Virus record (IMG/VR): IMGVR_UViG_3300014501_000067
Location: 1-25,334 of that record
Direction: 5' to 3' (one strand)
Origin: a virus
Length of the DNA stretch: 25,334 bases
In this document: piece by piece, positions 3,193 through 21,878 of the stretch
Numbering within the stretch: the stretch's first letter is position 1
Layout of the letters: each line of letters opens with the position of its first letter
Program-made: the position numbers and the translations under genes
Notes under the pieces: generated by a model
Database searches by the model: none
The model's input: only the letters and a program-made list of their open reading frames with translations
Told to the model about the DNA's origin: nothing

Positions 3193-4140
3193 CTAGACCG
3201 CTACTTCCGGCGGCGGGATGTAGGGGAAGCCGCCAAAGCGCAGCAAGTTCTGGAAGGTCACGTTGCAGGTCCCGCTCGTATGGTCGCAGCCCGGCAGCAT
3301 CGTAAAGGTGTCGCCCGCGGTTATCGGGAAGAGCCACGCCCGGATCACCTCGATCTGCGAGCCGTTGCCGATGCTGACAATCGTGCGCGTGGATCCGGCG
3401 TTGGCGCCGGTTAGGCCGGTCACCGTACCCTCGACGTAATTCGGCACCGTGGTGGTGCAGTTCATGGTCGCCTGGTCGGAGCCGGCCGCGGCAGTAACCG
3501 TGGCCTGGCCCACCCCGGTGGAAGTGCCGAGCGCGTTCTTGCCGTTGACCCGGTCATAGCCGCACATCGTGTCGCCGAAGACATGCGCGCAGGCCGCGCC
3601 GTAGAGCCGGCGCGGCATCTGCTGGATCGCCAAGAGGTTCATCAGCGACTTGACCTTGACCGCGATCGTCGAGCGTCCGACATCGCAATCGGCGATCCGG
3701 CCGTAGAACCACAACAGACAGCCGAGACTGGTGTCGAGTGCGCCCGAGCCGGCGGTCTGCGGCGGGGCGAAGAAGCGGTCCAGCTCGACCGTCGCGCCGT
3801 CGAAGATCCCCATCCGCACCGCGTCCGCGATCGGAAACGTGCCGACCAGATCGTTGGCGCCGGCCATGATCTGGATGTCGAGCTCGGCCGGTTGGACGCC
3901 GATCTTCGTCGTGACCTTCGAGCGCCCGAAGCGCGGGCCGAGCGCAAAAATCTGCTGCGCGCCATGATTGAAGCTGCCGACCGGAAACCCGGCGGCGGGG
4001 ATGGTCAGCGCCGTGTCGCCGCCCGACCAGCGCAATACCTCTCCGCTAGTCAGCGCGAACGTGTAGAGGTCGACCTGGACGACCGCCAGATCGGCGCCAT
4101 CGTTGAGGTAGCTGGTCAGCGCGGCCGAGCATGGTCTCAT
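3193..4140 (-). CDS. DUF2163 / phage_BR0599 baseplate hub protein
   Basis: A 315-residue protein. The C-terminal block (LPGCDHTSGTCN...FGGFPYIP) is diagnostic of the DUF2163/phage_BR0599 family, which forms the baseplate hub in GTA-like tails (Orfg13). Four cysteines (184, 193, 285 and 292) stand in the conserved arrangement. Lambda gpL, an analogous tail-tip protein, is known to bind an iron-sulfur cluster through C-terminal cysteines, and the same is inferred here. A beta insertion between the two Cys pairs (about residues 205-280) accounts for the domain VTGLTGANAGSTRTI. The ATG overlaps the stop of the DUF2460 gene (ATGA) and the stop abuts the small ORF, so it is translationally coupled on both sides. 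Confidence 0.88.
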   Translation of the reverse strand: MRPCSAALTSYLNDGADLAVVQVDLYTFALTSGEVLRWSGGDTALTIPAAGFPVGSFNHGAQQIFALGPRFGRSKVTTKIGVQPAELDIQIMAGANDLVGTFPIADAVRMGIFDGATVELDRFFAPPQTAGSGALDTSLGCLLWFYGRIADCDVGRSTIAVKVKSLMNLLAIQQMPRRLYGAACAHVFGDTMCGYDRVNGKNALGTSTGVGQATVTAAAGSDQATMNCTTTVPNYVEGTVTGLTGANAGSTRTIVSIGNGSQIEVIRAWLFPITAGDTFTMLPGCDHTSGTCNVTFQNLLRFGGFPYIPPPEVAV

Positions 4141-4763
4141 GACAGCACCGATTGCAGCTTGACTTGCTTCAACGACCAGAGCTGGTACATGAAGTTCTCG
4201 AATTCGACGGTGTCGTCGGCGAACCGCACCCGGAAGTAATAAGTGAAGTCCGCGGCGATCGCCTGGCCGGTCGGCGGTGCGGTCGTGAAGGTGACGAGGC
4301 CGGTCGTCGCATCAACCGTATAGCCCGATGATGATTGCAGGACGCCGTTGAAGTAGATCGCGCTGACCATGTTGGGCGCGACGATCGGCTCGCTGAAGCC
4401 GCCGAAATTCCGCACTAGCTGAAACACCGTCGTGCTCGAATTGCCGGTGCCGATCGATTGTGCCAGAACGGCATCATCGGTCGGATCGTCGAACAGGAAC
4501 GGCGTAAAAGATCCCTGCTGTTGCAGAAAGAAGCCGGCGAGCGTGCGCAGCTCGTCAAAGCCGGCGCCGAGCCCGCTTGGCGCCCGCGTGTCATGCTTGT
4601 CGCGCAGGATTTCGTAGGTCAGCGTGAAGGTCCAGATCGGATTGACCTGGTCGATGACGCGCAACTCGCGCCCGGATATCGCCTTCTGCGTGCGGGTGGC
4701 AAAGCGCGCCGCCTTCGAAACCGACCAGCCGAGGCCGGGAAGGGCTGGGAAAATCGCGGTCAC
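4137..4763 (-). CDS. DUF2460 distal tail protein
   Basis: A 208-residue protein of the DUF2460 family (GTA Orfg12 type), which forms the ring joining the tail tube to the baseplate hub. Family features are the opening FPALPGLGWSVSK, the central KHDTRAPSGLGAGFDELRTL followed by a phage-typical GSFTPFLFDDPTDD segment, and the C-terminus with VRFADDTVEFENFMYQLW. Length is normal for the family. Order is conserved: tape measure, DUF2460, DUF2163, peptidase, tip. The gene starts 10 nt after the tape measure stop and its stop overlaps the hub ATG. Confidence 0.9.
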   Translation of the reverse strand: MTAIFPALPGLGWSVSKAARFATRTQKAISGRELRVIDQVNPIWTFTLTYEILRDKHDTRAPSGLGAGFDELRTLAGFFLQQQGSFTPFLFDDPTDDAVLAQSIGTGNSSTTVFQLVRNFGGFSEPIVAPNMVSAIYFNGVLQSSSGYTVDATTGLVTFTTAPPTGQAIAADFTYYFRVRFADDTVEFENFMYQLWSLKQVKLQSVLS

Positions 4764-4772
4764 GGAGCCTCG

Positions 4773-5687
4773 TCAGATCGTGCGTGGGGTCAGCGCGTTC
4801 GAGCGCAGCATGTTGCGCACGACGCCGGGATTGCGGCCCATCAGCCCGGTGAACCAGCGCTCGACTGCTGGGCCGTCGGAGGGTCCGTGAAAATGCAGGT
4901 GCATGTCGCCCGTGCCACCCTGCGCGATCATGCCTTGCAGCCCTTCGCTGATATGCGCCGGCAGCACCATCTCGCGCGAATGCAGGAGGGCGGGTTGCGT
5001 GCCCGCGAAGCTCGGCAAGGCCCAGCCGCCGGCGGCCGACGGCACGATGCCGCCTTGCGAGAATGCCAGCAGGCCGCCAAGCCAGCCGAACAGGCCGCCT
5101 CCACCGGCCGCAGCCCCGCCGACGGTGGCGGCCGCGCCGGTGGCTGCGATCCCACCGCCCGCCGCGGCGGTGCCGGCGGCCATCGTCGTCGCGAGCGCCG
5201 TGAGCGCGGCGGTGTTGGTGGACAGCGCGGCGGTGTTCGCGGTCTGCTCGCCGTTGTCGAGCAGGTTGCCGAGCCCGAGCTGCTTGTTCACAAGACTGCT
5301 GAGCCCGCTGCCCAAGACGTCGCCCACCCCTTTGCCGGCTGCGGGCGCGCCCAGCCCGAGCAGGCCGGCCAGCGGCCCGGCTGCCGCCTGGGAGAGCACC
5401 GTCTGGGCGACGGTGGCGAGTCCGTCCTCGACCGAATTGGTGGCGACCACGGCCGCCTTCTGCCAGGTCAACGTCCCCTGGATCAGCCCTTCGGCGGCGC
5501 GTTTCCAGCCGGCCCCGATCTGGTCGAAGGCCTGCGTGTAGGGCCTCGCGATCTTCGCCGCCGCCTTGCTCGCCGCGGCGGCCATCCTGTCTTGGTCGAC
5601 CTCGAACTGGTCTGCGGCCTCGCCGCTGGCCGCCATCAGCTCGGCGAGTGAGGAGCTGCTCTCGGTAAAGCCGGTGCGTCCGCGCAT
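4773..5687 (-). CDS. Tail tape measure protein, C-terminal part
   Basis: A 304-residue frame carrying the C-terminal half of a tape measure protein. About residues 45-100 (ARPYTQAFDQIGAGWK... LIQGTLTWQKAAVV) match the segment that precedes the hydrophobic core in this family. An Ala/Gly-rich hydrophobic stretch follows (about 100-210), then FSQGGIVPSAAGGW and LLHSREMVLPAHISEGL, typical of tape measure C-termini. Tape measure proteins set tail length and help deliver DNA. A stop (TAG at 5708-5706) lies upstream and an SD-like GGGAGA sits before the ATG at 5687, so this part may be made alone. With 304 residues it would specify a short tail, close to GTA tape measures, but a piece that looks like the normal N-terminus lies just upstream in broken frames, so truncation is likelier. 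Confidence 0.75.
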   Translation of the reverse strand: MRGRTGFTESSSSLAELMAASGEAADQFEVDQDRMAAAASKAAAKIARPYTQAFDQIGAGWKRAAEGLIQGTLTWQKAAVVATNSVEDGLATVAQTVLSQAAAGPLAGLLGLGAPAAGKGVGDVLGSGLSSLVNKQLGLGNLLDNGEQTANTAALSTNTAALTALATTMAAGTAAAGGGIAATGAAATVGGAAAGGGGLFGWLGGLLAFSQGGIVPSAAGGWALPSFAGTQPALLHSREMVLPAHISEGLQGMIAQGGTGDMHLHFHGPSDGPAVERWFTGLMGRNPGVVRNMLRSNALTPRTI

Positions 5688-5949: not shown

Positions 5950-5983
5950 CAGGCCCCCGCAAAAAAGCTTCCGCGGGGGCCTG
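5950..5983. repeat. GC-rich inverted repeat after the secreted cargo gene
   Basis: Perfect 11-bp arms (CAGGCCCCCGC and GCGGGGGCCTG) flank a 12-nt loop that holds a run of six A (six T on the minus strand). It lies 17 nt past the stop of the 6000-6665 gene and 30 nt before the tape measure fragment. The stem is strong enough to terminate or protect a transcript, but the T run sits inside the loop rather than after the stem, so it is not a textbook intrinsic terminator. It marks the boundary of the cargo gene cassette. Confidence 0.6.
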
Positions 5984-5999: not shown

Positions 6000-6665
6000 C
6001 TACTCTAATTCGATCGAGGAAAACTGGGTCCGCTTCGCCGCGGCTTCCGGGTCCTTGGACCCCCGCCACTCGATGATGTGGGTGTAGGCGAGGGTGACGC
6101 CGCCGCAATACGGCACACCGGCGGTGTGCGACACGATCCGGTGCAGCCCGTTGAGGCCGGTCGAGAGATCCTGGTGTTGACGGGTGATCCGGGGTTTCAC
6201 CGAATTTTCAAAAAACTGGTACAGCTCGATCTTGCGGATCCCCGGACAACGGCGGCCCACGAGACGCGAGACGATGTCATAGAGCTTGCTCTGGTCGTAG
6301 AACTGCTCGGTCCGCGCCGTGAGCAGATTGTGCAACAGGTTCGATTCGACGCTCTGCACCGTATCGTTCGGCCGCAGATGCAGCAGGAAGACAAAGGCGT
6401 CGAGCTCGCCCGGGAGTTTGGCGTAAACCGTGACAAGCCCGTTGCCGATCGGCCTGCCATTGACGTCGGTGTCGTGGCGATGCGCTATCGTGGTGGCGAG
6501 AAAATTCTCGTCGATCGTCATCGTCGCGCGCAGCCAGCGCACACATTCCTCGACCGAGACGCCAAGGCACCCCGGCCCGTCAGCCGGCTGGGCGGCAGAG
6601 ACCGGTGCCGGATTGGCGCCGGCCGCCAGCCCGAGCGCCAGGCCGCCGAGAAGCAGCCACCGCAT
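6000..6665 (-). CDS. Secreted protein of unknown function (moron-like cargo gene)
   Basis: A 221-residue protein with a clear Sec signal peptide: Arg2, a hydrophobic core WLLLGGLALGLAAGA, and a likely cut after the Ala residues near position 25. There is no lipobox Cys, so a periplasmic or secreted protein is expected. Four cysteines (33, 41, 140 and 187) could form two disulfides. The fold looks mixed alpha/beta (VYAKLPGELDAFVFLLHL; KIELYQFFENSV). I recognise no family. It interrupts the usual tail order between the assembly chaperone and the tape measure. It has its own promoter (6699-6726), an SD (AAGGGA) before the ATG, and a hairpin behind it. That layout is typical of a moron expressed from the lysogen, perhaps altering host surface or physiology; this role is inferred. 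Confidence 0.75.
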   Translation of the reverse strand: MRWLLLGGLALGLAAGANPAPVSAAQPADGPGCLGVSVEECVRWLRATMTIDENFLATTIAHRHDTDVNGRPIGNGLVTVYAKLPGELDAFVFLLHLRPNDTVQSVESNLLHNLLTARTEQFYDQSKLYDIVSRLVGRRCPGIRKIELYQFFENSVKPRITRQHQDLSTGLNGLHRIVSHTAGVPYCGGVTLAYTHIIEWRGSKDPEAAAKRTQFSSIELE

Positions 6666-6698: not shown

Positions 6699-6726
6699 AT
6701 TATGCGGCACAGCCGCTCTTCGACAA
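6699..6726 (-). promoter_or_regulatory. Sigma70-like promoter for the secreted cargo gene
   Basis: On the minus strand, TTGTCG (-35, 6726-6721), a 16-nt spacer and CATAAT (-10, 6704-6699, 5 of 6 consensus bases). The start of transcription would fall about 25-30 nt before the ATG at 6665. It sits in the only intergenic gap of this part of the operon, directly after the chaperone stop. Confidence 0.5.
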
Positions 6727-9577: not shown

Positions 9578-11065
9578 TTACCCGTTGCCGATATTGGTGA
9601 TGACCCCCATCGCGAACGGCGCGTAGACCGCCAGCACCTCTTCGGCGTAGACGCCGACTTGGCGCTGACGGGTTATCACCGGCCAGTCGATCTCGTAGTA
9701 GTCTTGCCGGGTCTTTACCTCGGCGACGTTCGGCACCTCGTTCGACTGGTACTGGACGGGCAGGTTCTCGGCCCAACCGATGATCGTCCCGGCCGGGATC
9801 CTCGGATGAATGCGGATCGGAATGCGCAACCCGCCATTCAAGGCGTACGGATTGAAGTAGAACGATACCGCGCCCGCCGCCGCCAGATCGTACGCGTTGC
9901 CGTCGCCGCTGACCTCATAGCGCAGCAGCGGCCCCGAGGCGTTGGACAGCACCTTGTTGGTGATGTTCTTCAGCTCCTGCGCATTGACGTAAAGGACCGT
10001 CGGCGAGACCTCGAAATTGTTCCACATGGTCTGGAACATCGTGTCGATCTCGACGACCGAGCCGCGGCCCGACGCGGTCAGCGGCGTGCCGGTCCCTGCG
10101 GTGCCGGTTGCCAGGCTGCTGACATAGGCGTTGGAGCCCGATTTCAGCGCAGCGGTGAGGAGCCCGTCATAGGCATAGCTCGGATTGGCCGAATTATCGG
10201 CGGTCACCGCCGACACCGCCTGCTGCCCGCCGGTCAGCGGCGCCGCGACGGTCGCGCTGTTGATCGTGGTGATCGCCTGCAGCGTCTCCGAGCCGGCGGT
10301 GCCGACAAACCAGGCATAGGCGACCGCGCCCTGGATCGCCGTGACACTGGCGAACAGGGTCTGACCCAATGTTACCGCCTGGGTCGCATTCGCGCTCTTG
10401 TTGGACGAACCACCCGACAACACGAAGGTCTTGCCGTCGGCGCCGTTGATGGTCTTGGTTGTGGCAATCCCCGAGGCAAGGCTCGAGTTTTGGTAGCCTT
10501 CGAGGGTCAGTGCAACGACGATGACCGAATAGGTCGCGCTCGGTAATGTCGCTCCCGAGCCCGAGGCCGACAGCACCGGCGCTGTCGGGGTGCCCAGTTG
10601 CAGCGAGGCATTGCCGGCGAGGATCGCCATCTCCTCCTTTAGCATCAGCTTCTGCAACAAGCGGAAGGTCATGCGCGCCTGGATGTCCTCGAAATGGCGC
10701 CCGGCGCTGATCGCCTCATAGGTGGCCGCGTCTTCCTCGCCGATCGTCACGTAACTGGCCGATTTGGAAGCGGTCGAATAGGACATCTGGCCCGAGCGCT
10801 GGCCTTCCGGGACCCAGCCCATCGAGTCGAAGCCGGAGCCGGTCAGCGCGGTCACCTGGCGCCAGTTGGTCGCCGTGCCGGTGCCGCCGCCGATCCGCGG
10901 TATCACGTTGCGGATCGGCGTCACGACCGGATAGAGGTTCTTGGCCGGCGCTTGCAGGTCAAAGGCAACAAGGCCGGTGCCGGTGGAAATCGATTTGGTG
11001 ATCCGGTCGTCGGGCGTGCGCAACGCGCCCTTCACCAGATCGAGGGTGTCCTGGGTCGGGTTCAT
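9578..11065 (-). CDS. Major capsid protein, HK97-like, with an inserted beta domain
   Basis: A 495-residue protein. The start is MNPTQDTLDLVKGALRTPDD at 11065, chosen because a strong SD (GGAAGGAAA) precedes it; the longer frame would start inside a terminator hairpin. Typical coat features are VTPIRNVIPRIGGGTGTATN near residue 50, GWVPEGQRSGQMSYS near 84, a spine-helix-like RMTFRLLQKLMLKEEMAILA at 131-150, and the C-terminal EVKTRQDYYEIDWPVITRQ. Between about residues 158 and 288 lies a Ser/Thr/Gly-rich domain (TYSVIVVALTLEGYQ... AVAYAWFVGT) that resembles a fibronectin-III or Ig-like fold and is not part of the coat core; it may be displayed on the capsid. No scaffold gene is seen, and the protease lies immediately upstream. 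Confidence 0.85.
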   Translation of the reverse strand: MNPTQDTLDLVKGALRTPDDRITKSISTGTGLVAFDLQAPAKNLYPVVTPIRNVIPRIGGGTGTATNWRQVTALTGSGFDSMGWVPEGQRSGQMSYSTASKSASYVTIGEEDAATYEAISAGRHFEDIQARMTFRLLQKLMLKEEMAILAGNASLQLGTPTAPVLSASGSGATLPSATYSVIVVALTLEGYQNSSLASGIATTKTINGADGKTFVLSGGSSNKSANATQAVTLGQTLFASVTAIQGAVAYAWFVGTAGSETLQAITTINSATVAAPLTGGQQAVSAVTADNSANPSYAYDGLLTAALKSGSNAYVSSLATGTAGTGTPLTASGRGSVVEIDTMFQTMWNNFEVSPTVLYVNAQELKNITNKVLSNASGPLLRYEVSGDGNAYDLAAAGAVSFYFNPYALNGGLRIPIRIHPRIPAGTIIGWAENLPVQYQSNEVPNVAEVKTRQDYYEIDWPVITRQRQVGVYAEEVLAVYAPFAMGVITNIGNG

Positions 11066-11090
11066 CGGTGTTTCCTTCCGCTCGGGCATC

Positions 11091-11113
11091 AAAAAACCCG
11101 GCATTGGCCGGGT
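11091..11113 (-). terminator. Intrinsic terminator between protease and capsid genes
   Basis: On the minus strand: ACCCGGC, loop CAAT, GCCGGGT, then a run of six T. The 7-bp stem, 4-nt loop and T run are textbook. It lies 26 nt after the protease stop and 26 nt before the capsid start. No convincing promoter is visible between it and the capsid gene, so readthrough, antitermination or RNA processing must set capsid expression. Confidence 0.8.
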
Positions 11114-11139: not shown

Positions 11140-12579
11140 CTACCAGGTCGCGACTCCCGCCGACCGGCCAACGGGAACTATCGGGTTGGCGTGCGCCGCC
11201 TTGATCAGGGTCAGGGTGCGCTCCTCATCGCTCATTCGCGCGAGCGCGGCGACGACGTCTTCGGCGGGTGGGATCGTGCCGCCGGCATCTTTCCGCTTCG
11301 AGAGCCCAACAAATCCGCGCGCGACGGTCTGCGGCGGCAGCGGCGTACGGGCGATCTGCTCGACTCGTTTTTGCAGTGCATCGAGGCGCGGCATGATCTC
11401 GCCGGCGAGCTTGGCAAGACCGGTGGCGACGGGTGCAAAATCGGGCCGGCGCACCTTGCGCAGATTGCCGGCGATGGCCAGCGCGGCCAGGTCGGCCTGG
11501 GCCGATCCGTCGCTGCCATCGACCAGTTCGGCGCTTTCCTCGGCGACGAGAGATTGGAGGAAGTCGCACAATTCGGCGATGATCCCTTGCAGCTGCGGCG
11601 CCAGAGGCGAATCGTCCGCTTCTGTCGCCGCCTCGATCGCGATGCGGTCGTAGAGCCAGTCGAGATCGAGGATGAGTTGCGCCAGGCGCCCGACCTCGGC
11701 AAGGCTTTTGCGCGCCGGTTCGGCCGCGCGGCCAGGCCCGGAGACGGCCGCCGGCGGCCCGTCGCGATCGACCTTCTCCTGCCAGGCGGCGACGATCCGC
11801 GCCTTGATGCGCTCGAGTTGGGCCGCCGTGTAGCGGCGCGCGTTGCCGGGCTGGTGAATAAAGGCCCAGGCGGCGCGGATATGGCGCTCGGTGTCGATCG
11901 GATAGCGCTTCTTTCCGTCCGGGCGATAGCCGGGATCGGCATAATCGACGTCGCCATAGGGGTCGCCGTCGCCCTCGGCCGCATCCTCATCATGCTCACC
12001 GGGGGCTGTCGCGGCGGCGGGCTCATGCCCTTCGAGGCAGCGCACCGCCTCCGCCTTCGCGAGATGGCGGTGGCCGGCAACTCCACAATCCCAGATCTGC
12101 ACGGGTGCGCCGGTTGTCGCCGCAATAGTGGCCATACTGCCTCCTGTCGCCGGGCCGGTGGAAAATTTCCAGCAATCGAATACCGCATCGGGGTTGGCCG
12201 GGCGGTCGACCACCGAGATTTCGGTCAGGCGAAGCGCGGTGATCAGCCGCCGGTCGGCGGGATCACGGGCGGTCACCCTGCCGCCGATCGAGAAACCCTT
12301 GTAGACGCCTTCGACGACCTTCTGCCAGGCATCGGCGTCGACGATCTTGGCCCCGAGATAGAGGCCCTTGTCGTCGACGGCGGCTTCCGTGGCGACACCG
12401 ACCGCCGAGGGCTGATGCATCTCGCGGATATTGGCAAAGCGCATGTAGTCGTCTAGCGCCGCGGTCAACGCCTCGCGGGTGACGGTCTCGCCCTGGTCGT
12501 CCTCAGCCTCGGTCGACGCATAGCCCCACACCATCCGCTGTTCGGCATCGACCTTGGCGATCGGCCAGTAAAAGCGCAT
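11140..12579 (-). CDS. XkdF-like prohead protease with DUF6582-like C-terminal region
   Basis: A 479-residue protein starting at ATG 12579 (SD GAGGAGAG). Residues 1-135 form a phage prohead serine protease domain of the XkdF/S78 type: VWGYASTEAEDDQG, probable catalytic His55 in IREMHQPS, Ser97 in VYKGFSIGG and the family motif LTEISVVDRPANP. It would trim capsid proteins during assembly. Next is a Cys/His cluster (Cys165, His170, His172, Cys181, His185) that could bind a metal. An acidic linker follows, then a DUF6582-like module at about 223-270 (KRYPIDTERHIRAAWAFI ... LERIKARIVAAW). The rest is helical and charged, with a possible coiled coil (AKLAGEIMPRLDALQKRVEQ), and could act as a fused scaffold. 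That role is inferred. It directly precedes the capsid gene. Confidence 0.8.
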   Translation of the reverse strand: MRFYWPIAKVDAEQRMVWGYASTEAEDDQGETVTREALTAALDDYMRFANIREMHQPSAVGVATEAAVDDKGLYLGAKIVDADAWQKVVEGVYKGFSIGGRVTARDPADRRLITALRLTEISVVDRPANPDAVFDCWKFSTGPATGGSMATIAATTGAPVQIWDCGVAGHRHLAKAEAVRCLEGHEPAAATAPGEHDEDAAEGDGDPYGDVDYADPGYRPDGKKRYPIDTERHIRAAWAFIHQPGNARRYTAAQLERIKARIVAAWQEKVDRDGPPAAVSGPGRAAEPARKSLAEVGRLAQLILDLDWLYDRIAIEAATEADDSPLAPQLQGIIAELCDFLQSLVAEESAELVDGSDGSAQADLAALAIAGNLRKVRRPDFAPVATGLAKLAGEIMPRLDALQKRVEQIARTPLPPQTVARGFVGLSKRKDAGGTIPPAEDVVAALARMSDEERTLTLIKAAHANPIVPVGRSAGVATW

Positions 12580-12636
12580 CGAGAACTCTCCTCGGTTCGT
12601 GCCCGTCCAGGAATTGCGATCCACCGCCCCGCCCGC

Positions 12637-13128
12637 TCAAAGCTCCAAGGCGCTGATCGAGACGGTGGCGATCGAGGCCGTGCCGCCGGTTATTGCGGTG
12701 AGACCGACATCGACCCAATAGGCGGTGCCGACAGTGAGCCCGGTCACGACCGCCTGCACGCTGAACGGGATCTTGTTCGTCACGGGGTTGTTGTCGGCGA
12801 TGTTGTTGCCGACCGCTGTCCCGGTAAGCGCCGCGCCATTGGTTGGCGCCGTGCCGGTGCCGTAGCGGATCTGCAAACTGGCGCCGTCGCCGGTCGTGCC
12901 GTTGGTCAGGGTCCCACTGACGATCAGCAGCACATTGCCGCTGTGCGCCGGGATGATCGCCCCGGCGAGCCCCATCATCAGGCCGGTCGTGCTGGTCGTG
13001 CCGGCCGGCGCCGCTACGTTGGCCTGCGTCGCGTTAGATGGATGCGGGCCGTAGACCGTGGTGCCGGCCTGTGCCGGGACGACGGCGGCGCCGATCAGCA
13101 GCAGGCACAAAGGGATCAATCGTTTCAT
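12637..13128 (-). CDS. Secreted beta-rich protein in the head module
   Basis: A 163-residue protein with a strong signal peptide (Lys2, Arg3, core LIPLCLLLIGAAVV, cut after AQA near residue 22). The mature part is Gly/Thr/Ala-rich with alternating hydrophobic residues (NVLLIVSGTLTNG; PFSVQAVVTGLTVGTAYWVD), suggesting a beta sandwich like phage decoration or fibre domains. Its ATG overlaps the stop of a 12-codon mini-ORF, which itself overlaps the stop of the upstream gene. It lies between the fibre-like gene and the prohead protease. No family was recognised. Export signals are unexpected for a virion part. Confidence 0.7.
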   Translation of the reverse strand: MKRLIPLCLLLIGAAVVPAQAGTTVYGPHPSNATQANVAAPAGTTSTTGLMMGLAGAIIPAHSGNVLLIVSGTLTNGTTGDGASLQIRYGTGTAPTNGAALTGTAVGNNIADNNPVTNKIPFSVQAVVTGLTVGTAYWVDVGLTAITGGTASIATVSISALEL

Positions 13129-13163
13129 CGGTGCGTCAGCCTCTTCGGGTTGATTTCTGACAT
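13125..13163 (-). CDS. 12-residue mini-ORF linking two secreted protein genes
   Basis: [12 protein letters not shown]. The ATG shares its A with the TGA of the upstream gene (TGATG) and its own TGA overlaps the next ATG (ATGA). It also contains the GAAGAGG that may serve as SD for the next gene. It probably works as a reinitiation relay rather than as a functional peptide. Confidence 0.35.
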   Translation of the reverse strand: MSEINPKRLTHR

Positions 13164-14950
13164 CAATTCACCGTCCACGTGCCGGTCGTGCGGTCGGCCG
13201 CCCACTGGTTGGAAACGCTGGTCGCGAAGATGCAGGCGGTCGAATAGACCGCGCCTGCGGTGATGTTGCCGGCTGCGGCGCTGTTGGTCGTACCGATCGC
13301 GATCTTGGTGGAGGCCGGCGCGATCACCTTCAAGGTCTGCGCCGCCGTCACGGTGAAGCAATAGCGCAAACCGGCGGCATAGGCAGGCAGCGTAAAGTCG
13401 ACTTCGCCCGCGGCGCCGGTGTTGTCGAAATAGGTGTTGCTGTCGCCTGTCAGCACCGAATAGTTGCTGGTCTTGGTGACTTCCAGGGCCTTCTGCCCGG
13501 CGATCGTCGTCGCGGTCGCCGCGCCGAGCGCCGGGGTAACGAGCGTCGGCGAGGTCGCCCGCACATAGCCGCTGCCGGCGGTGCCGGTCGGGGCGGTGCC
13601 GTTGTCGTAGACCGCGCCCGCTGGATTGAGCGTCCCGGCGCCCCTGTCGCCGGCGGTCGGGGTGCCAAGCGCCAGGCCGCCCCCCGCCGTAAACTGTGCA
13701 ATGAGGCTGGGACTGAAGCCGGTGCCGCCGGTCAATCCAGTGTTCGCCCAAATGTTCACCGTGCCCGTGCTGGCTTGCAGATCCACACCGGCCGCCGAAG
13801 TTGCCTTGGCCGTCCAAGACCCGCCGCTACTCAGCGTCGCCTGGGAACTCAGGCTTGCTTGATTGCCGTACACACTGAAATAGCCGCTTTGGAATTCGCC
13901 CTGCGTGCCATTCGCCCCGCTCGTGAAGTCGAGCGGGAAGTTGGCCGCCTTGTTGACGCCGACGCCGTTGTTGTTGAGTTGGATCGTCTGGTTGCCGGTG
14001 GTCGCCGTCGAATAGAGCCGCCAGGCCGCGTTCCCGGCCGCGCTGTACCAGTCGATCGACTGGCTCTGCCCCATCTGAATTGCCGGCGCGATGCGGCCCG
14101 ACGAGGTATCGAGCCCGTTTGCGTCGAACACCAATCCCGAGCGGTACACCGCGCCGTTGCCGAGGATATGCACCGCGTTGGTGCATTTGTTCGGCGACAT
14201 CGCGAGGGTGATCGTCTCGCTTGAGACGGTTGAGGATCGCGTCAGCTGCCAGGTGCCGACGCCCGTCGTCGTATTCCCGGTCAACTGCCGTAGGATTTCG
14301 GTGTCCGCCGTCACCCCGGTGCCGGTCAGGACCTGACCGGGATAGAGGCCGCCCGAATTGACCGCCGTAACCGTCAGAATCGTGCCCGCGATCGACCCCG
14401 TGATATTGCCGGGAATGCTGCCGACGCCGCAGTCAATCCGGTAATTCTCGTTATCTCCGGTGATGTTGGGCGTGTAGGGGTCGATGTCGGGAGTAATGCC
14501 GCGATTATATTGAGAACTTTCCGTCATCAGCATTTGCGCAGAGACGGCGGCCGAGGAGACATGCCCTTCCAGGTACTCGTTCCAGACCGAATGCGCTACC
14601 GATTGGTTGTCTAAAAAAGTTCTGTTAAAATACGCTATGACGCCCGCCGATGACCCGCCAGCGTTATCGGATGAATAGCTGCCGTCAAAGAGAGCGACTT
14701 GACCGATCGGGCTGATCGTGATGACGGTGGCGCTCGCATTGGGCAGCGCGTTCCCAAACAGAGCGCCCCCAAAAGCCGGCGTATTCGTCGTGCCGAGGCC
14801 GAGGTTGTTGAGCGTGGCGGGCAGGCTCGCGTTGGCGGCGTTGAGAGCCATACCGGGCGGTGGCTGGATCGGCGGCACCTGGGCCGCCGCGGGTAGCGAG
14901 AGGGCGAGAGCCGCCGCCCAGATAGCGAGATAGCCAAGGCGCTTCATCAT
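13163..14950 (-). CDS. Secreted tail fibre-like protein
   Basis: A 595-residue protein starting at [10 protein letters not shown] (ATG 14950, overlapping the upstream stop as ATGA). Residues 1-24 are a Sec signal peptide ending in AAAQ. Residues about 35-90 ([20 protein letters not shown]) resemble the fibre segment recalled from prophage tail fibres. Residues 183-248 ([36 protein letters not shown]) form the beta domain common in phage fibres. Residues 300-400 are beta-rich, and 488-595 form a C-terminal sandwich ([20 protein letters not shown]). The gene for residues about 100-170 is clearly more AT-rich than the rest, which suggests domain exchange. A fibre-like protein in the head module and with a signal peptide is odd. 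It may be exported by the lysogen or bind its surface; function is not established. Confidence 0.7.
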
Positions 14951-15414
14951 CACCAGCTCCTCGCGGCCATCTGGCAGGAGGACGAGCTCGAATAGATCCG
15001 GATGCGTCCGGTATGCGGCATCCCCGCCATGCTGAGCGAGCCGCCCGAGCCGCCATTCGCGGCCGCTCCGCCGATCACGATGATCGTCGGGGCGAGGCTG
15101 CCCCCTTGGTCGTCGAGCACGACCACGAGGCCGGCGGTGCATTGCGCCTGGACGATATAGCCGAGCCGCGGCACCGCGGGCGCTGGGATCGTCGCGAGCA
15201 TGGTCAGCCCCGACAGCGATCCGGCATTGGCGCTGTAATCGAGGCCGCTGTTGCCGGGCGAGGCCATCGCCTCGGCTGCGCCGAGTTGGCGGTAGCCCGG
15301 CACCTCGACGGCCTTACTCTGCGCCGCCGCGCTGCCGATACCGCCCATGGGAAGGCCCGCAGCGAGCGCCGCCGAGAGGAAAGCCGCCCGGAGGCGGCGT
15401 GCGGAGATTTTCAT
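14950..15414 (-). CDS. Secreted protein of unknown function
   Basis: A 154-residue protein. The N-terminus is a long signal peptide (basic MKISARRLR, core [18 protein letters not shown], cut after SAAAQ near residue 32). The mature part has [20 protein letters not shown], a hydrophobic strand [20 protein letters not shown] and a Gly/Ser-rich C-terminus with [14 protein letters not shown]; two Cys (in QAQCTAG and SSSCQ) could form a disulfide. It looks like a small beta protein. The start is separated from the portal stop by 88 nt that hold a mini-ORF and no clear promoter. Its stop overlaps the next ATG, so it is coupled to the fibre-like gene. No family was recognised. Confidence 0.65.
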
Positions 15415-15473
15415 GAGGGAATTACCGTCGGTTACCGTGAAATTCGCGGAGGTGTGGGTGGCGCGGGCGGCCC

Positions 15474-15506
15474 CTAATTAGTGTCACCGCCGTTGCACAT
15501 TTTCAT
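15474..15506 (-). CDS. Possible 10-residue mini-ORF after the portal gene
   Basis: MKMCNGGDTN then TAG; the ATG overlaps the portal TGA (ATGA). The same frame continues beyond the TAG as GPPAPPTPPRISR to a TAA at 15434-15432, a Pro-rich stretch like those in tiny phage proteins. It may be a reinitiation relay or a broken 24-codon gene. Support is weak. Confidence 0.2.
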   Translation of the reverse strand: MKMCNGGDTN

Positions 15507-16852
15507 TTTGGCTTAACCGACGCGCTAGGCGCCGGTGCCCCAAGCGGTACCGCGCCGGCACTGCCGTAGACCAGCGCCTGGTCGCCGCCGGCGACCGGGT
15601 CGAAGCCGAGGATGTCGCGCGCCTCGTTTACCGTGTAGATCCCGTCCCGGACATAGATGTCGAGCATCTGGGCCTGCTCGGCCGGGTCGGCCGGGCGCAG
15701 ATCGACCCAGGTGAATTCGAGGTCGGCATGGCCCATCCGGTCCTGGATGACGTGGTCGGCGAGGCGCTTAACCCAGCCCATCAGCGGCGCCAATCCCTCG
15801 GCGAGCGCAGCCTCCTGCGCGGTCTCGGCGGTGGCGCGGTTGACCTGGCGGGTGAACGCGCTGGGCGGCAACGAGAAGGCGTAGCAGATGATGCGCGCCA
15901 GCCATTCGTCGAACTCGTCCTTGTAGGGCGCCTCCTTGAAGGGCTGGTACTTCGCTCCGCTTGGGCCCCATACGAGCCGCGAGCGCGCGCCGGTATTGCC
16001 GGCGAGAACGCTGTCGAACCACTCCTGGAACTGCCCGATCTGTTCGACGTTCCACCCGTCCGGCGCATTCAGCAACCCGGGCGGCACATTGCCCTCGGTG
16101 AAGTGCTGCAGCTGCATCCCCTGCCGCCGCAGGGCGATGTTGACGGTCATGACGATCTGCTCGACCGGGCCGAAGCCGTAGGCCTTGTGCGGGCGCGGAT
16201 TGCGCGGCAGGTACAAGAGCTCGTCGCTCGTCAAGAGCTTCCACGGCCGGCCGTGGATCACCTGCTCGAAAGCCGGTGCCGGCGGCTTGGGCCGGCGTCC
16301 GGTCTCGTCGAACAACACCTTGATGGTGGCACCGTCGACGACATCGAGACCGGTGATCTCGCCGCTGCGGTTGCGGCGCAGCTCAAGTGCCGGCGCATCG
16401 AGCACCAGAACGTCTTCGAGAAGCTCGCGCAACCAGGTCGCGAACGGCCGCTCACCGTCCGGTCGGCGCCAGAAATCGGCGAGGTGTGCGCTGCGCGTCG
16501 TCGCGTCTGCGGTGGGAAGCTGTGTCGTGCGCGGCTTGATCGTCCAGTCGAGCTTCTCGATCTGGTCCTTGCGGGTCTCGATCGCCAGGCGTGTGATGTC
16601 ATGGGCATCGGCCAGTGCGCGCAGTTCGTCGAAGGCGATCGGCTCGTAAGCGCGCGGCGTGTAGATCGTGTTGACGCCGACCGGAAAATCCCAAAGCCGC
16701 ACCCGCTCGGGCTCGGGCGGCGCCAGCGGATAGCCGGGCGAGAAGATCCCTTGGCCCGGTTGGAACACGGTGCCGAACTGCGCCTCGAGGCCCTGCTGAC
16801 CCCAGGTATAAGAGGCTGTCAGGGGCTTGCGCGTACCACTTTCGGGAGGCAT
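15503..16852 (-). CDS. Phage portal protein
   Basis: A 449-residue protein that forms the dodecameric DNA entry ring at the capsid vertex. The start MPPESGTRKPLTASYTWGQ is at ATG 16852, overlapping the stop of the upstream gene (ATGA). Portal features are ALADAHDITRLAIETRKDQI followed by EKLDWTIKPR, LLEDVLVLDAPALELRRN, DELLYLPRNPRPHKAYGFGP, VPPGLLNAPDGW, and the FSLPPSAFTRQVNRATAE segment with the C-terminal DIYVRDGIYTVNEARDILGF. Length and order of blocks are those of a complete HK97-type portal. The C-terminus is Pro/Ala-rich. Instead of lying next to the terminase, it is separated from it by the two genes at 16852-20111. Confidence 0.9.
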   Translation of the reverse strand: MPPESGTRKPLTASYTWGQQGLEAQFGTVFQPGQGIFSPGYPLAPPEPERVRLWDFPVGVNTIYTPRAYEPIAFDELRALADAHDITRLAIETRKDQIEKLDWTIKPRTTQLPTADATTRSAHLADFWRRPDGERPFATWLRELLEDVLVLDAPALELRRNRSGEITGLDVVDGATIKVLFDETGRRPKPPAPAFEQVIHGRPWKLLTSDELLYLPRNPRPHKAYGFGPVEQIVMTVNIALRRQGMQLQHFTEGNVPPGLLNAPDGWNVEQIGQFQEWFDSVLAGNTGARSRLVWGPSGAKYQPFKEAPYKDEFDEWLARIICYAFSLPPSAFTRQVNRATAETAQEAALAEGLAPLMGWVKRLADHVIQDRMGHADLEFTWVDLRPADPAEQAQMLDIYVRDGIYTVNEARDILGFDPVAGGDQALVYGSAGAVPLGAPAPSASVKPK

Positions 16853-19662
16853 CAGAAGCTGCTCCAGGCTGATCGCTTCCAGGTATTGGGTGCAGTGCAG
16901 GCGTAGAGGTAATTCGAGTCGAATTGGAGCGCACCGGTCTGGCAGGCGGCCGAGCTTGAGGCCGGCGTCCCGATCGGCAGCGCCATGCCGTTGATGTTGG
17001 CGGTCAGCGGGGTCGCGTAGATGATGCGGAAATTGCTGCCGTCGAATTGCAGGATGACGAGTTCGTACGCGCTGGTGTTGTTCGAGAGCGCCAGCGAGGT
17101 CTTCGCCCCGAGCGTTCCCGGCACCAGGATCTTCTCGCCGGCGCCGCCATTGACCGCGACGCTCATCGTCTTTGAGTTGTCGGTCGCGACGCCGATCGTC
17201 CAGCCGGGCGAGAGCGTGCCGATTGCCGGCAGGGTCACCGCGAGGCCGGCGCCCGGCGCGTTGAAGCTCGACAAAGCGTTGCCGCCATCCGCGGCGGTCG
17301 CCGTGTAGGTGTTGACGGACGGGAACGACCATCGCGTCGTCGCGCCGGCGCTGCCCGGGAACGCCAGGCCTTGCGCCGTCAACGGAGTCACCTGGGCGAC
17401 GCGAAAATTCGACCCGTCGAATTGCAGGACCGCGAATTCGTAATTGCCGGCGGCGAGGGCCAGAGAAGTGACCGACGGGCCGCTGCCGGGATAGAGGATC
17501 TTGCCGCCGCTGGTCGGGTTGACCTGGACCGCGGCGAGCTTGCCGTTGTCGTTGGCGATCGCGATCGTCCACCCAGCGCTGATCGCATTCGTCGACGGCA
17601 GCGTCACCGTCAGATATCCGAGCGGCGAGTTGTAAGCCGAGATCGCGTCGCCATTGTCGGCGAGGGTGGCGCTGTAGGCGCTCGCCGATGGGAAACTCCA
17701 CCGGCTGATGCCGCCGATGCCGGCCATGCCGAGCTGCGTTGCTGTCGCCGGCGTCGCCTGCTCGATCCGGAAATCGCCGCCGCCGTCATATTGCAGCACG
17801 ATGAATTCGTAGTTGTTGCCGGCGAGGCTCAGCGAGGTCACGAGTGCGCCGCTGTTCGGGTAGAGCAGATGCCCCCCGCTCGTGTTGTTGACCTGCACGG
17901 CGAGGCTCTTGCCGTTCTCGGCGGTAAAGCCCATCGACCAGCCCGATGACAGTGTGGTCGTCGACGGCAGCGTCACCGTCAGTCCCGCTCCTGTGTTGTA
18001 GCTCGACAGCACATTGCCGTTGTCGGCTAGCGTTGCGCTGTATCCCGCGCTCGACGGGAAGAGCCAGTTGCCGGGCCAGTTGCCGGGTTCGATCCCGTTG
18101 CCGAGGCGCGTGTTGCGGGTTGAGGTGCGCACCCGGTAGTTCGAGCCGTCGTTGACCAGCTCGACATATTCGTAATTGCCGGGGCCGAGCGTGAGCGTCG
18201 AGATCTGCTTGCCGCCCGACAGGATGAAACCCGAGGGCGGGGTCAATGTCATGCCCTTGCCGTTGTCGCTGGCAAACCCCATCCACCAGCCGGTCTCGAC
18301 CCCTGCCGGCGCCGGCAGGGTGATCCCCATCGACGCGCCAGGCGCGTTGTAGGACGAAATCGCCGTGCCGCTGTCGACGCCGACGGCGGTGAAGGTCGCG
18401 ACCGCCGGGAATTGCCACGGCACCCGATTGCCGGTGCCGATTACCTGGATCGAGGATGATTGCGGACCGCGATTGACGACATTGCCGCCATAGTTCGGGT
18501 TGATCAGCACATTGCGCGTCGAAGCTGTCGCACTCACTGCGGTCACGCAGTTGAAATAGGGCGAGACAAACGTGTTCTGCCCGTCATGGGCGAAGGTGAT
18601 CGAGAGGCACGTCGGCGAGACTTCGAGATCGAGCGCGAGAAAGGTGTTCGAGAAGTTGTAGCCGTTCTCGAGCACGAGCCCGGCGCCGCCGGTGCCCTGC
18701 GCCGTGCCGGCGCCGCTGATCCGCGAGAACTGCGTCTGTTCGAGCGCGAGGCCCGCGGCGCCGCCGCCCGAGACGCACACCGCCCAGAGGTCGCTGTCGA
18801 GCACATAGTTGAACTGGCAGCCGCCGGCGCCTGCCGCGGTACTGGCGTTGTTGACCGTGAGATGATCGATCTTCGCCGAATTGTGCGCGTCGGCGAAATT
18901 GTAGGTGCCGAGCATGAACGGATAGGAGGGCCGCGACACCTGGCCGTTGATGTCGGCCGCGGACGGCAGCCCGGTGTGCAGCGTGATGCTGACCCCGGGG
19001 TTCATCGCGTCGACCGGTGCGGCGAAGCTGCCCCCGCTGTGCAGCGCAACGATGACCGTGCCGCCGACCGTAAACGGCGCCGTCGTCGAGACGCCGAGCA
19101 CGGTCGCGCCGGTACTGTAGCCGGCGGTCAGGGTTGCCAGGTTCTGCTGGCCCGAATTGGCGAGGATGTCGAGCGTGCCTTCGATCTTCAAATAAAAGCA
19201 GCCGGTCGGGCTTCCGGCCGACCCGCCCGAGCACAGCACCTGCAGCACCGGGCCCGAGCTGATCGAGCGCCCGTCGAGGATCGCGCCTTCGGATATGAGG
19301 CGGAACCCGTTCGCCGCCTGGCTGGCGTAATCGGCGGTGAGGAGGCTGGTGACCTTGTACTTCCCGGCCGGGACATGCACCGGCCAGTTGCTGGCGATTC
19401 CTGCGTTGATGGTGGCTTGAAGTGCGCTGGTGTCGTCATGGCTGTCGTCGCCGACCGCCCCCCCGGCCATGCTTGGGCATTTGACATCAATCCACGGCCG
19501 CCCCGAGCACATCAGGACGTCGCCGTTGAGGGTCGCCGTGCCGGTCGTCGACAGCGTCGAAAAATTGCCCGGCGACTGCGCCAGCGCGCTCCAGGCGACC
19601 AGAACTCCCGCGATCAGCGCCGCTGCCGTGAGCGTACGGTCGATCCATTTCGTCGGCGACAT
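16852..19662 (-). CDS. Secreted beta-helix (tailspike/pectate-lyase-like) protein with four tandem repeats
   Basis: A 936-residue protein. ATG 19662 is preferred (5 nt after the upstream stop); a GTG at 19674 is in frame. Residues 1-29 are a signal peptide (Lys5, Arg9, core TLTAAALIAGVLVAW, then SALAQ). Residues about 55-110 carry the entry motif of phage beta-helix proteins: a G-A-V-G-D...H-D-D-T-S-A-L-Q-A-T-I pattern and PVHVPAGKYKV. A right-handed beta helix then runs to about residue 410. Four repeats of 117-123 residues follow (416-896), and a C-terminal cap ends TWKRSAWSSF, with a Cys pair. Similar architecture is used by polysaccharide-degrading tailspikes, but no catalytic residues can be assigned. 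It lies between terminase and portal, far from the tail genes. An exported depolymerase or surface protein is possible. Confidence 0.8.
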   Translation of the reverse strand: MSPTKWIDRTLTAAALIAGVLVAWSALAQSPGNFSTLSTTGTATLNGDVLMCSGRPWIDVKCPSMAGGAVGDDSHDDTSALQATINAGIASNWPVHVPAGKYKVTSLLTADYASQAANGFRLISEGAILDGRSISSGPVLQVLCSGGSAGSPTGCFYLKIEGTLDILANSGQQNLATLTAGYSTGATVLGVSTTAPFTVGGTVIVALHSGGSFAAPVDAMNPGVSITLHTGLPSAADINGQVSRPSYPFMLGTYNFADAHNSAKIDHLTVNNASTAAGAGGCQFNYVLDSDLWAVCVSGGGAAGLALEQTQFSRISGAGTAQGTGGAGLVLENGYNFSNTFLALDLEVSPTCLSITFAHDGQNTFVSPYFNCVTAVSATASTRNVLINPNYGGNVVNRGPQSSSIQVIGTGNRVPWQFPAVATFTAVGVDSGTAISSYNAPGASMGITLPAPAGVETGWWMGFASDNGKGMTLTPPSGFILSGGKQISTLTLGPGNYEYVELVNDGSNYRVRTSTRNTRLGNGIEPGNWPGNWLFPSSAGYSATLADNGNVLSSYNTGAGLTVTLPSTTTLSSGWSMGFTAENGKSLAVQVNNTSGGHLLYPNSGALVTSLSLAGNNYEFIVLQYDGGGDFRIEQATPATATQLGMAGIGGISRWSFPSASAYSATLADNGDAISAYNSPLGYLTVTLPSTNAISAGWTIAIANDNGKLAAVQVNPTSGGKILYPGSGPSVTSLALAAGNYEFAVLQFDGSNFRVAQVTPLTAQGLAFPGSAGATTRWSFPSVNTYTATAADGGNALSSFNAPGAGLAVTLPAIGTLSPGWTIGVATDNSKTMSVAVNGGAGEKILVPGTLGAKTSLALSNNTSAYELVILQFDGSNFRIIYATPLTANINGMALPIGTPASSSAACQTGALQFDSNYLYACTAPNTWKRSAWSSF
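16975..18417 (-). repeat. Four tandem protein-level repeats of about 120 codons
   Basis: Units, from N- to C-terminal: 18417-18067, 18066-17701, 17700-17332 and 17331-16975. Each opens with W-x-FP, followed by Y/F-x-A-x-x-x-D-x-G-x-x-x-S-x-x-N, then a T-L-P strand, G-W-x-x-x-x-x-x-(D/E)-N-x-K, a G-x-K/L-x-L-x-P/G turn, and (Y/F)E-(F/L/Y)-V-x-L-x-x-D-G-S-x-(F/Y)-R. Units 2-4 are closest to one another; unit 1 is the most diverged. Confidence 0.75.
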
Positions 19663-19667
19663 CCGGC

Positions 19668-20111
19668 TCACCACCGGCGCGCCGCAAAGCCCTGGCCCGT
19701 TGTCGCGCCGTAGAGGCTCACCGCCCCGGCGGGCTTATACCCGGAGGGGGTGGCGAACAGACCCCCATTCGCGGCGAGCTGGATGCTGGCGCCGCCCGCC
19801 GAGGCGACCCCGACGTCCGAGATCCACAGCGCGGCGGACGAATTGTTCTGCACGACAAACCCGTTCACCGGGACGAGCCCGCCGAACAGCGCTTGGGCGC
19901 TGCCCCCGGTGGCGACCGCGCCGCTGCCGTCGCTCGCCACGGCGCCGGCCGTGTTGGTCACCGGCAGCGGGTTTTGCAGCCCGACCGGGCTCGATACGCC
20001 TTGCGCGTTGGTCACGGCCGGCGCGTGCACCGGCACGAGGTTGCCGTTGCCGTCGACCTCGGTCGCCAGCGACTGCACCGTGGTGTTGGCGTCTTTGACG
20101 AGCAGCGTCAT
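19668..20111 (-). CDS. Small virion-type structural protein
   Basis: A 147-residue protein. The N-terminal half is VQSLATEVDGNGNLVPVHAP and LQNPLPVTNTAGA. The C-terminal half has a compact beta pattern (LFGGLVPVNGFVVQNNSSAA, LWISDVGVASAGGASIQ) and ends with KPAGAVSLYGATTGQGFAAR, a pattern I recall from small proteins near prophage terminases. There is no signal peptide, unlike the next gene. The ATG overlaps the stop of the large terminase gene (ATGA). It may be a decoration or fibre-attachment protein; that is inferred from composition. Confidence 0.6.
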   Translation of the reverse strand: MTLLVKDANTTVQSLATEVDGNGNLVPVHAPAVTNAQGVSSPVGLQNPLPVTNTAGAVASDGSGAVATGGSAQALFGGLVPVNGFVVQNNSSAALWISDVGVASAGGASIQLAANGGLFATPSGYKPAGAVSLYGATTGQGFAARRW

Positions 20112-21448
20112 GGAGCGTCATTCTCCTTTGCAGCGAGCCGCCGATAAGTCTCGAAAATGCCGTCCCCCGCACGGGGCTGGACCAGCAGCTCGGTGATGGC
20201 CCAAACCAGCGCGTCGACCCGGTCCGGCGAGTAGCCGGCCGCTGTCCGATCGAAATCGCTGGTGAAGGCGCACATCTGGTCTTCGAGCTGCGGGTAGGCG
20301 CCGAGGTGGTGAATTCGGCCCTGCTCATAGAGCGCGGCCACCGGCTCGGCCCGCGCGACCTTGCCGCGCGCCGCCCTCACTGCGCTGAACGGGACGTTCG
20401 GGTCAATCATCCGCAGCGTCGCCTCGACCATGTCGCCGCCATTGTTGATTTCGGCGACAATGCGGTCGGCCTGGTGGGCGCCGTAAGCGGCGATAGCGAT
20501 GCGTGCCCACTCCGCCGGCGCATAACGGCCCGAAGCGTCGGCGAGCACATAGCCGTGGCCGTTTCCGTCCCGGCCGACGGCAATGATCCCGGTTTCGTCG
20601 GCTTTCTCGCTTGCGGAGACCGCGGGATCGATCGCGACGACGACCCGCGAGAGTTCCGGTAGGGCGCTCGTCCGCGTCGCCTCGATGATGCCGCGCTGCC
20701 ACAAGCCGCCGGGCATGTCGTCGAGAATCTCGGCATCGAGCTCCTGCCGCCCGAGCCGGGTTCCTTGATAGCGTCGCACGATCTGGTCGAGAAAGGCGGG
20801 CGCCAGGTTGGCGCGATTTTCGGCCGTCGTGCCGCGGCTCACCACGACCTTCGGGTCGGCGATGAGGGCGCGGATCGGCTTTGTCGGCCGCGGCGTCGTG
20901 GTCACGATTGCCCGCGGGTCGTTGCCGAGTCGCAGCCCGAACATCAGCATGTTCCACGCTTCCGGATAGCGCCACGCGGCAAGTTCGTCGCACCAGGCGA
21001 AATCATGCTGCGGTCCTCGCAAGCGTTCCGGTTCCTCGGCGCTGAAAATCGTCGCGACCGCGCCGTTGGGCCAGGTGAGGCGACGGTTGGATGGCTCGTA
21101 GAGCGGCCGGTCCCAGGGTGGCGCGATCGCCAGCAGCCCGCTTTCGCCCTCAACCATCACATCGCGCGCATCGGCCGCGGTTGGTGCCACCAGCGCTATG
21201 CGACGCGCCGTATGCGCCCCGACCCGGGCCCGTACCAATTCGGCGCCGGTCCGCGTCTTGCCAAAGCCGCGGCCGGCCAGCAGCAGCCAGACCCGCCAAT
21301 CGCCCGGCGGTGGCAATTGCTCCGGTCGCGCCCGGTACGGCCATTCGTATTTGAGCCTGAGCGCCTTGTCGCGCGGCAGCGACCAGACGAGCCTATTCCT
21401 CACCGGCTCCGGCAGCGAGGCGAGCGAGCTCGCGTGCAAGGAATTCAC
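20108..21448 (-). CDS. terL: Terminase large subunit
   Basis: A 446-residue packaging motor ATPase/nuclease. The GTG at 21448 is chosen because GAGAGGA stands 5 nt before it; an ATG at 21466 is the alternative, and both lie inside the end of the small subunit gene. Walker A is LLLAGRGFGKTRTGAEL (Lys64), and the Walker B region is DFAWCDELAAWRYPEAWNML with the catalytic acid in DE. The TTTPRPTKPI coupling motif follows. The RNase H-like nuclease domain begins at RVVVAIDPAVSASEKADETG, has VAEINNGGDMVEATLR, and ends with YSPDRVDALVWAITELLVQP; the acidic residues of these motifs form the metal site. The family is of the Terminase_6 type. The stop overlaps the next ATG. Confidence 0.93.
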   Translation of the reverse strand: MNSLHASSLASLPEPVRNRLVWSLPRDKALRLKYEWPYRARPEQLPPPGDWRVWLLLAGRGFGKTRTGAELVRARVGAHTARRIALVAPTAADARDVMVEGESGLLAIAPPWDRPLYEPSNRRLTWPNGAVATIFSAEEPERLRGPQHDFAWCDELAAWRYPEAWNMLMFGLRLGNDPRAIVTTTPRPTKPIRALIADPKVVVSRGTTAENRANLAPAFLDQIVRRYQGTRLGRQELDAEILDDMPGGLWQRGIIEATRTSALPELSRVVVAIDPAVSASEKADETGIIAVGRDGNGHGYVLADASGRYAPAEWARIAIAAYGAHQADRIVAEINNGGDMVEATLRMIDPNVPFSAVRAARGKVARAEPVAALYEQGRIHHLGAYPQLEDQMCAFTSDFDRTAAGYSPDRVDALVWAITELLVQPRAGDGIFETYRRLAAKENDAP

Positions 21449-21878
21449 GAGGATCCTCTCCCTCATCCTGCGGCGCCTCGTTCTCGTGGCGCCGCGGCGG
21501 CAGCGGGAACATGCCGAGATACCGGGCGATCGCGTCGAGCGCTGCCTTCCTGTCGTACAGCTTGACCCGGGAATGCTCGGGGTCGGAGCCGGGCACAATC
21601 TCGGAAATCGCGGAGACGTCCGCGTTGCTCATCGTGTCGAGCGACTTGATCCGCAGCCCGCCAGGGCCCCACTCGACAATGTGACGCAAATCCGCAAAGG
21701 CGATATGGCCATATTCCTCTAGGACGCGGTCGGCGGTGATGCCGAGCCGGGCGGCGCGCGCCGCGATCTCTTCGAGATCGGCCGGGAGCGCTTCCTTCTG
21801 CGCCTCTTTTTTTGGCCCGCGGCGCGCTTTGCCCGATGTCGGTCGGGAGCTGCCGCGCCGCGGAGACCGAGTTGCCAA
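21393..21878 (-). CDS. terS: Terminase small subunit, apparently without the N-terminal HTH
   Basis: A 161-residue protein. The segment ARLGITADRVLEEYGHIAFA, DLRHIVEW and the later RVKLYDRKAALDAIARYLGM match the C-terminal two-thirds of Terminase_2-type small subunits. Family members normally carry about 60 residues before this, with a helix-turn-helix that recognises the packaging site. Here that part is replaced by a short basic tail (PRRGSSRPTSGKARRGPKK). The start is a TTG at 21878 without a clear SD; the frame stays open to a stop at 21950-21948 but has no better start. The C-terminus is acidic and overlaps the terL start by 56 nt. It is transcribed from the promoter at 21945-21973. Confidence 0.7.
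   Translation of the reverse strand: MATRSPRRGSSRPTSGKARRGPKKEAQKEALPADLEEIAARAARLGITADRVLEEYGHIAFADLRHIVEWGPGGLRIKSLDTMSNADVSAISEIVPGSDPEHSRVKLYDRKAALDAIARYLGMFPLPPRRHENEAPQDEGEDPREFLARELARLAAGAGEE

Follow-up and report, generated by a model that had tools for sequence, protein, structure and literature searches.

In the accepted picture, tailed phages both produce and attach their fibers within the cytoplasm. The locus described here raises the question of why proteins with N-terminal Sec signal peptides (SPs), some of them spike- or fiber-like, are encoded amid phage head genes.

Signal-peptide genes in the late operon

In the window (the whole 25,334-nt stretch of viral DNA analyzed), the minus strand carries the late genes, which run TerS, TerL, p147, A, portal, B, C, D, protease, capsid, connectors, and GTA-type tail genes. 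A sequence-only reading had reported four genes with classical Sec SPs (A–D) amid the terminase, portal, and protease genes, and all four were recovered there. Its list was incomplete, as a fifth SP gene, E, had been overlooked at 6000–6665. It had also called all four products fiber-like; this description suits A and C, which are spike- or fiber-like, but not B and D, which are small proteins. The start of A is probably the GTG at 19671, which gives a GTGA overlap with p147, and the start chosen earlier, 19662, is an alternative ATG. The features are:

20108–21598, minus strand: large terminase subunit (TerL; Pfam Terminase_6N/6C)
19668–20111, minus strand: p147, conserved, 147 aa, lacking both SP and Cys; located between TerL and A
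16852–19671, minus strand: gene A, 936–939 aa, with SP, predicted beta-helix, about four fiber-type repeats, and a CTAxNTWKR tip domain
19579–19671, minus strand: SP of A, predicted cleavage between SALA and QS (SP scoring, homologue alignment, pN/pS)
15503–16852, minus strand: portal protein (Pfam Phage_portal, 1.7e-29; phrog_2662, 4.8e-77)
14950–15414, minus strand: gene B, small predicted exported protein with two invariant Cys (92, 147); SP 15322–15414
13163–14950, minus strand: gene C, predicted exported fiber-like protein with an NAANA..NNLGLG motif (phrog_21413, 4.3e-8); SP 14882–14950
12637–13128, minus strand: gene D, small predicted exported protein; SP 13066–13128
11140–12624, minus strand: head maturation protease, Peptidase_S78 with DUF6582 (Pfam)
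9578–11104, minus strand: probable major capsid protein (phrog_13692, function unknown; tblastn to phage major capsid proteins)
6000–6665, minus strand: gene E, a moron-like gene of the tail module and the fifth with an SP; SP 6591–6665
5951–5982, minus strand: strong hairpin directly after gene E

TerL overlaps p147 through ATGA, p147 overlaps A through GTGA, and A/portal and B/C overlap through TGATG; gaps of about 88, 34, and 12 nt separate portal from B, C from D, and D from the protease gene. The overlaps with neighbors described earlier for the SP genes therefore exist for A and for B/C, but the ATGA form that had been given for them occurs only at TerL/p147. Such overlaps argue for late expression, and the translational coupling of A and C to virion genes makes lysogen-only expression unlikely. 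No promoter-like site was found before A–D in a consensus scan, which alphaproteobacterial or phage promoters may escape, and a dedicated promoter for these genes was rejected on this basis. Morons are recognized by their own promoter and terminator; this combination was not found for A–D, whereas E has a promoter-like site upstream (6699–6726; consensus scan) and the hairpin downstream. E thus appears moron-like and A–D late-gene-like. Relatives of E also have hairpins (e.g., L096, L100 with a T-run; L numbers denote related loci), and some start like lipoproteins. Small lipoprotein-like genes, possibly spanins, were also seen near a GH25-like endolysin gene in the terminal part of the late region (L095 1822–3561, L099 1018–2137, L104 1–1160).

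Conservation of the signal peptides and variability of their slots

SPs were scored by a home-made rule (basic n-region, hydrophobic core of 8–16 residues, AxA-like site) applied to every possible start; it detected six of seven textbook E. coli SPs. Besides A–E, no late gene of the window scored above 7. The cleavage-like sites are SALA/QS in A, SAAA/QS in B, PAAA/QV in C, and AQA/GT in D. A portal-based scan yielded about 80 related viral loci or contigs, whose proteins were de-duplicated before SPs were counted. Between TerL/p147 and portal, 30 of 45 genes were SP-positive, as were 33 of 99 between portal and protease; the corresponding count for unique core late proteins was 1/308 (0.3%), and shuffled N-termini gave 0.8–1.6% at stricter cut-offs. 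SPs therefore occur in the two slots far beyond chance. At least one SP-positive member was present in 20 of the 49 protein clusters from both slots. Mean Cys content was 0.55% in core late proteins, 1.39% in the TerL–portal slot, and 1.05% in the portal–protease slot.

The N-terminus of A was followed through its homologues. In all 28 aligned sequences, the hydrophobic segment is kept and a cleavage-like site is followed by an invariant AQ, while the sequence preceding it is strongly divergent. In close pairs, pN/pS was 0.48 for the SP, as against 0.21 for the mature protein, which suggests that the SP segment is translated and under purifying selection. A few homologues miss the strict rule, although the hydrophobic segment is still there; these either have an acidic residue that lowers the charge of the n-region or lack a standard start codon ahead of the segment. 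Homologues lacking the N-terminal segment, which the sequence-only reading had named as evidence against export, were thus not what we found; the SPs are conserved.

These data bear on whether the N-termini are export signals at all. They could be chance hydrophobic stretches, the product of wrong starts, or uncleaved membrane or virion anchors; high-GC genes do yield many Ala/Leu-rich stretches, and starts were picked by reading frame. We regard this explanation as very improbable, because core late proteins of the same genomes are positive at 0.3%, the full n-, h-, and c-region pattern is present with its invariant AQ and purifying selection, SPs recur in several unrelated slot families, and slot genes are enriched in Cys. 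Sec export of A–D is, on these sequence grounds, very likely. The eight invariant Cys of A in the homologue alignment fit an oxidizing compartment.

Many loci (L020, L027, L059–L061, L073, L076–L081) have nothing or next to nothing in the portal–protease interval, which elsewhere holds differing cassettes; this interval is an optional, variable cassette site. Its cassette nature follows from the empty-gap loci together with the loci carrying quite different genes, and the earlier suggestion that the late operon contains a cassette for a secreted set agrees with this and with the SP conservation. Among the slot proteins with SPs, one in L066 matched Pect-lyase_RHGA_epim (6.2e-12), and two were GDSL esterases (L005, 8.4e-14; L033, 2.7e-14). 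In the subclade L033–L057, the slot holds an SP-less fiber cassette (368 aa, LamG-like, 125 aa); a cassette of the same type was seen in the tail module of L098 (7468–10711).

SP-bearing proteins were also found outside the two slots. Just after the tail-tip gene, at 3401–4648 (minus strand) in L100 and 3464–4894 (minus strand) in L099, lie SP-bearing members of tail-fiber families (phrog_4492, 2.2e-33, and phrog_5939, 7.5e-16, respectively); SP proteins at this site, in these loci and in L096 (9557–11234), match tail-fiber families or carry A-like fiber repeats. In L089 (7476–13780; labeled Candidatus Binataceae MAG), a pair of SP genes resembling A is located behind the tape-measure gene, not before portal. 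Twin-arginine (Tat-like) signals were seen at similar positions in L032 (7061–7996) and L104 (2569–4410, minus strand), the latter protein with a weak GDSL esterase C-terminus.

Predicted folds, relatives, and hosts

The AlphaFold model of A (mean pLDDT 72) comprises a beta-helix at about residues 50–400, repeats of about 110 residues, and a small tip. In VIA-align, the model reached Z about 25 against the Sf6 tailspike (24.9) and alginate epimerases including AlgE4, and its beta-helix gave Z 21–25 against tailspikes of the Sf6, phi29 gp12, and CBA120 type. The best PDB match in Foldseek was a Klebsiella phage structure, and the repeats matched a T4-type fiber; BFVD matches included a long tail fiber proximal subunit and pectate-lyase-like phage proteins. 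Against PF12708, A scored 24.8 bits, short of the cut-off of 27; a related slot protein of L066 exceeds it at 46.2 bits. The C-terminal tip of A recurs at the C-termini of Klebsiella and Synechococcus phage tail proteins. A is thus predicted to be a tailspike/epimerase-like beta-helix with tail-fiber-type repeats, built like a phage spike or fiber with an SP in front. In A, no residues were recognized as catalytic. An adhesin or depolymerase, as proposed in the sequence-only reading, is compatible with the predicted folds and domains (tailspike/epimerase fold, pectate-lyase-like, GDSL).

The model of B is beta-rich and of low confidence (pLDDT 56). In relatives, B is fused to a C-type protein (L029) and a C-type protein to D (L010, L011, L023), which suggests that B, C, and D act jointly. 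In the C-type–D fusions, the sole signal is the N-terminal one; the L029 junction retains the C-type signal-like stretch internally, so an error of gene calling or of the sequence may account for this fusion. p147 and B both end in AARxW and are 34% identical over 62 columns, with a profile-comparison probability of 3%, a weak hint that p147 (no SP, no Cys) may be related to B (SP, two Cys).

A-carrying prophages were found in metagenome-assembled genomes of soil Alphaproteobacteria, mostly of one family. The A-carrying elements are a prophage family of soil bacteria that encodes spike- or fiber-like proteins with export signals amid its head genes. Short, SP-bearing chromosomal homologues of the beta-helix of A were present in five host-group genomes, one of them beside mraZ/ftsI. 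These stand-alone proteins (L092 307–1224, L093 6894–7826, L094 1823–2719, L137, L145) are 44–61% identical to the beta-helix of A over the aligned part. In an unrooted tree, a 99% branch separates phage and chromosomal copies, and two host branches are long; a host origin of the beta-helix of A was therefore not upheld.

Among cultured phages the nearest is Brevundimonas phage Polewnik, in which portal directly follows TerL and neither A nor the cassette is present. Its head and tail structural genes have no SP; one hydrophobic protein beside the lysozyme gene scores 7.9. The absence of A and the cassette from Polewnik and the empty slots of many loci indicate that these genes are accessory. 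Searches of cultured phages by tblastn with A, C, and E gave no match, and the cultured-phage tail-fiber and esterase homologues checked have no SP. Phage DGR target proteins likewise lack the SPs found on bacterial ones (PMC6199706), in line with the earlier statement that virion parts normally have none.

Possible roles of the predicted exported set

Tailspike-fold secreted enzymes (WceF), SP-bearing phage-like fibers (Bdellovibrio MAT), and exported morons are already known. Lambda Lom and Bor, like A–D, are SP proteins encoded among or near late genes. These morons are single small outer-membrane proteins, whereas A–D include spike-like proteins and are coupled to head genes; E is closer to the moron description. 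The tailspikes of Sf6, phi29 gp12, and CBA120 type share the parallel beta-helix predicted for A but are virion parts of the cytoplasm that are not known to carry an SP; A does start with one, and its gene is flanked by the terminase and portal modules' genes.

WceF of Pantoea stewartii (PMC7949094), a secreted EPS hydrolase, is exported, has a tailspike fold, and works in an envelope/EPS context; it is a bacterial protein using the Tat route, whereas A is a phage late-operon gene with fiber repeats, known from its sequence. In the mosaic adhesive trimer (MAT) fibers of Bdellovibrio (PMC10769870), likened here by description, an SP precedes a phage-type trimeric fiber with mosaic C-termini; they are bacterial chromosomal predation proteins and have a conserved post-SP domain of about 130 aa. 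The detachable tailspike TspA of RcGTA (PMC13420450) is also a soluble biofilm depolymerase, and the tail genes of the window are GTA-like; TspA, however, is virion-bound first, and a term search of that article returned nothing on secretion, export, or periplasm. gp76 of phiCbK, a candidate head filament (PMC3556154), is likewise the product of a large fiber-like gene close to the head genes in a phage of Alphaproteobacteria, but it is lectin/Gly-rich rather than a beta-helix and no SP was reported as seen.

With about even confidence, we favor the reading that A–D form a late-expressed, Sec-exported set of spikes or adhesins, free or cell-attached, acting on surface polysaccharide. The proteins would be synthesized alongside the head proteins, pass through the inner membrane via Sec, and lose their SPs, with disulfides probably forming in the periplasm. 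A would be a tailspike/epimerase-like beta-helix with a fiber-type stalk, and C and its replacements would be fiber- or enzyme-like. The target of the set would most likely be polysaccharide, surface-bound or extracellular, of the producing cell and neighboring cells, which it would bind or modify either before lysis or once lysis frees the proteins. Possible gains to the phage are a matrix loosened for its progeny or masked receptors.

The same proteins, exported, folded in the periplasm, and disulfide-bonded, could instead dock on heads or tails at lysis as receptor-binding spikes. The sequence-only reading had listed a periplasmic virion-decoration step among its options. A, with its tailspike and fiber-type domains and a tip shared with Klebsiella and Synechococcus phage tail proteins, looks the part. 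Its repeats and tip are typical of virion fibers, and the nearest relative read to the tail end, G001 (L095), has no other obvious fiber gene after the tail-tip gene; together, these points favor a virion role and speak against free spikes. The SP-bearing tail-fiber-family proteins of L100 and L099 at the conventional fiber site, the resemblance of the cassette variability to that of receptor-binding genes, and the SP-less fiber cassettes occupying the same slot in other members point the same way. Nevertheless, no known docking domain was recognized after the SP, and the absence of A and the cassette from Polewnik, and of the cassette from many loci, indicates that they are not needed for assembly. 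The open-access literature yielded neither a tailed-phage precedent for such decoration nor any description of SP-bearing spikes or fibers coupled to tailed-phage head genes. We consider post-lysis decoration rather unlikely, yet it is the strongest competitor of the favored reading. The wider proposition, a tailed-phage lineage that routes its receptor-binding spikes via Sec and periplasmic disulfides and attaches them only at lysis, with assembly partly extracytoplasmic, appears doubtful to us and quite unlikely.

Lysogenic conversion or superinfection exclusion, in which proteins displayed by the lysogen block or alter phage receptors, is a role that SP-bearing prophage proteins often play (Lom, Bor, Ltp, Cor). 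The promoter-like site and 3′ hairpin of E and the stand-alone chromosomal homologues would suit it. The sequence-only reading had offered lysogen-made superinfection blockers as one option, but A and C overlap virion genes, the remaining gaps are small, no promoter-like site precedes A–D, and no match to the PADLOC anti-phage defense models was obtained at an E-value of 0.01. This role for A–D is improbable in our view.

If exported spikes conserved in the late operon are indeed what A–D represent, one of two things would follow: some temperate phages would, as a rule, shed free spikes active on surfaces along with their virions, or virion assembly would take place partly outside the cytoplasm. 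Such a set might also connect phage spikes with the secreted beta-helix proteins encoded on chromosomes, and under either outcome the annotation of SP-bearing genes inside phage structural modules would change.
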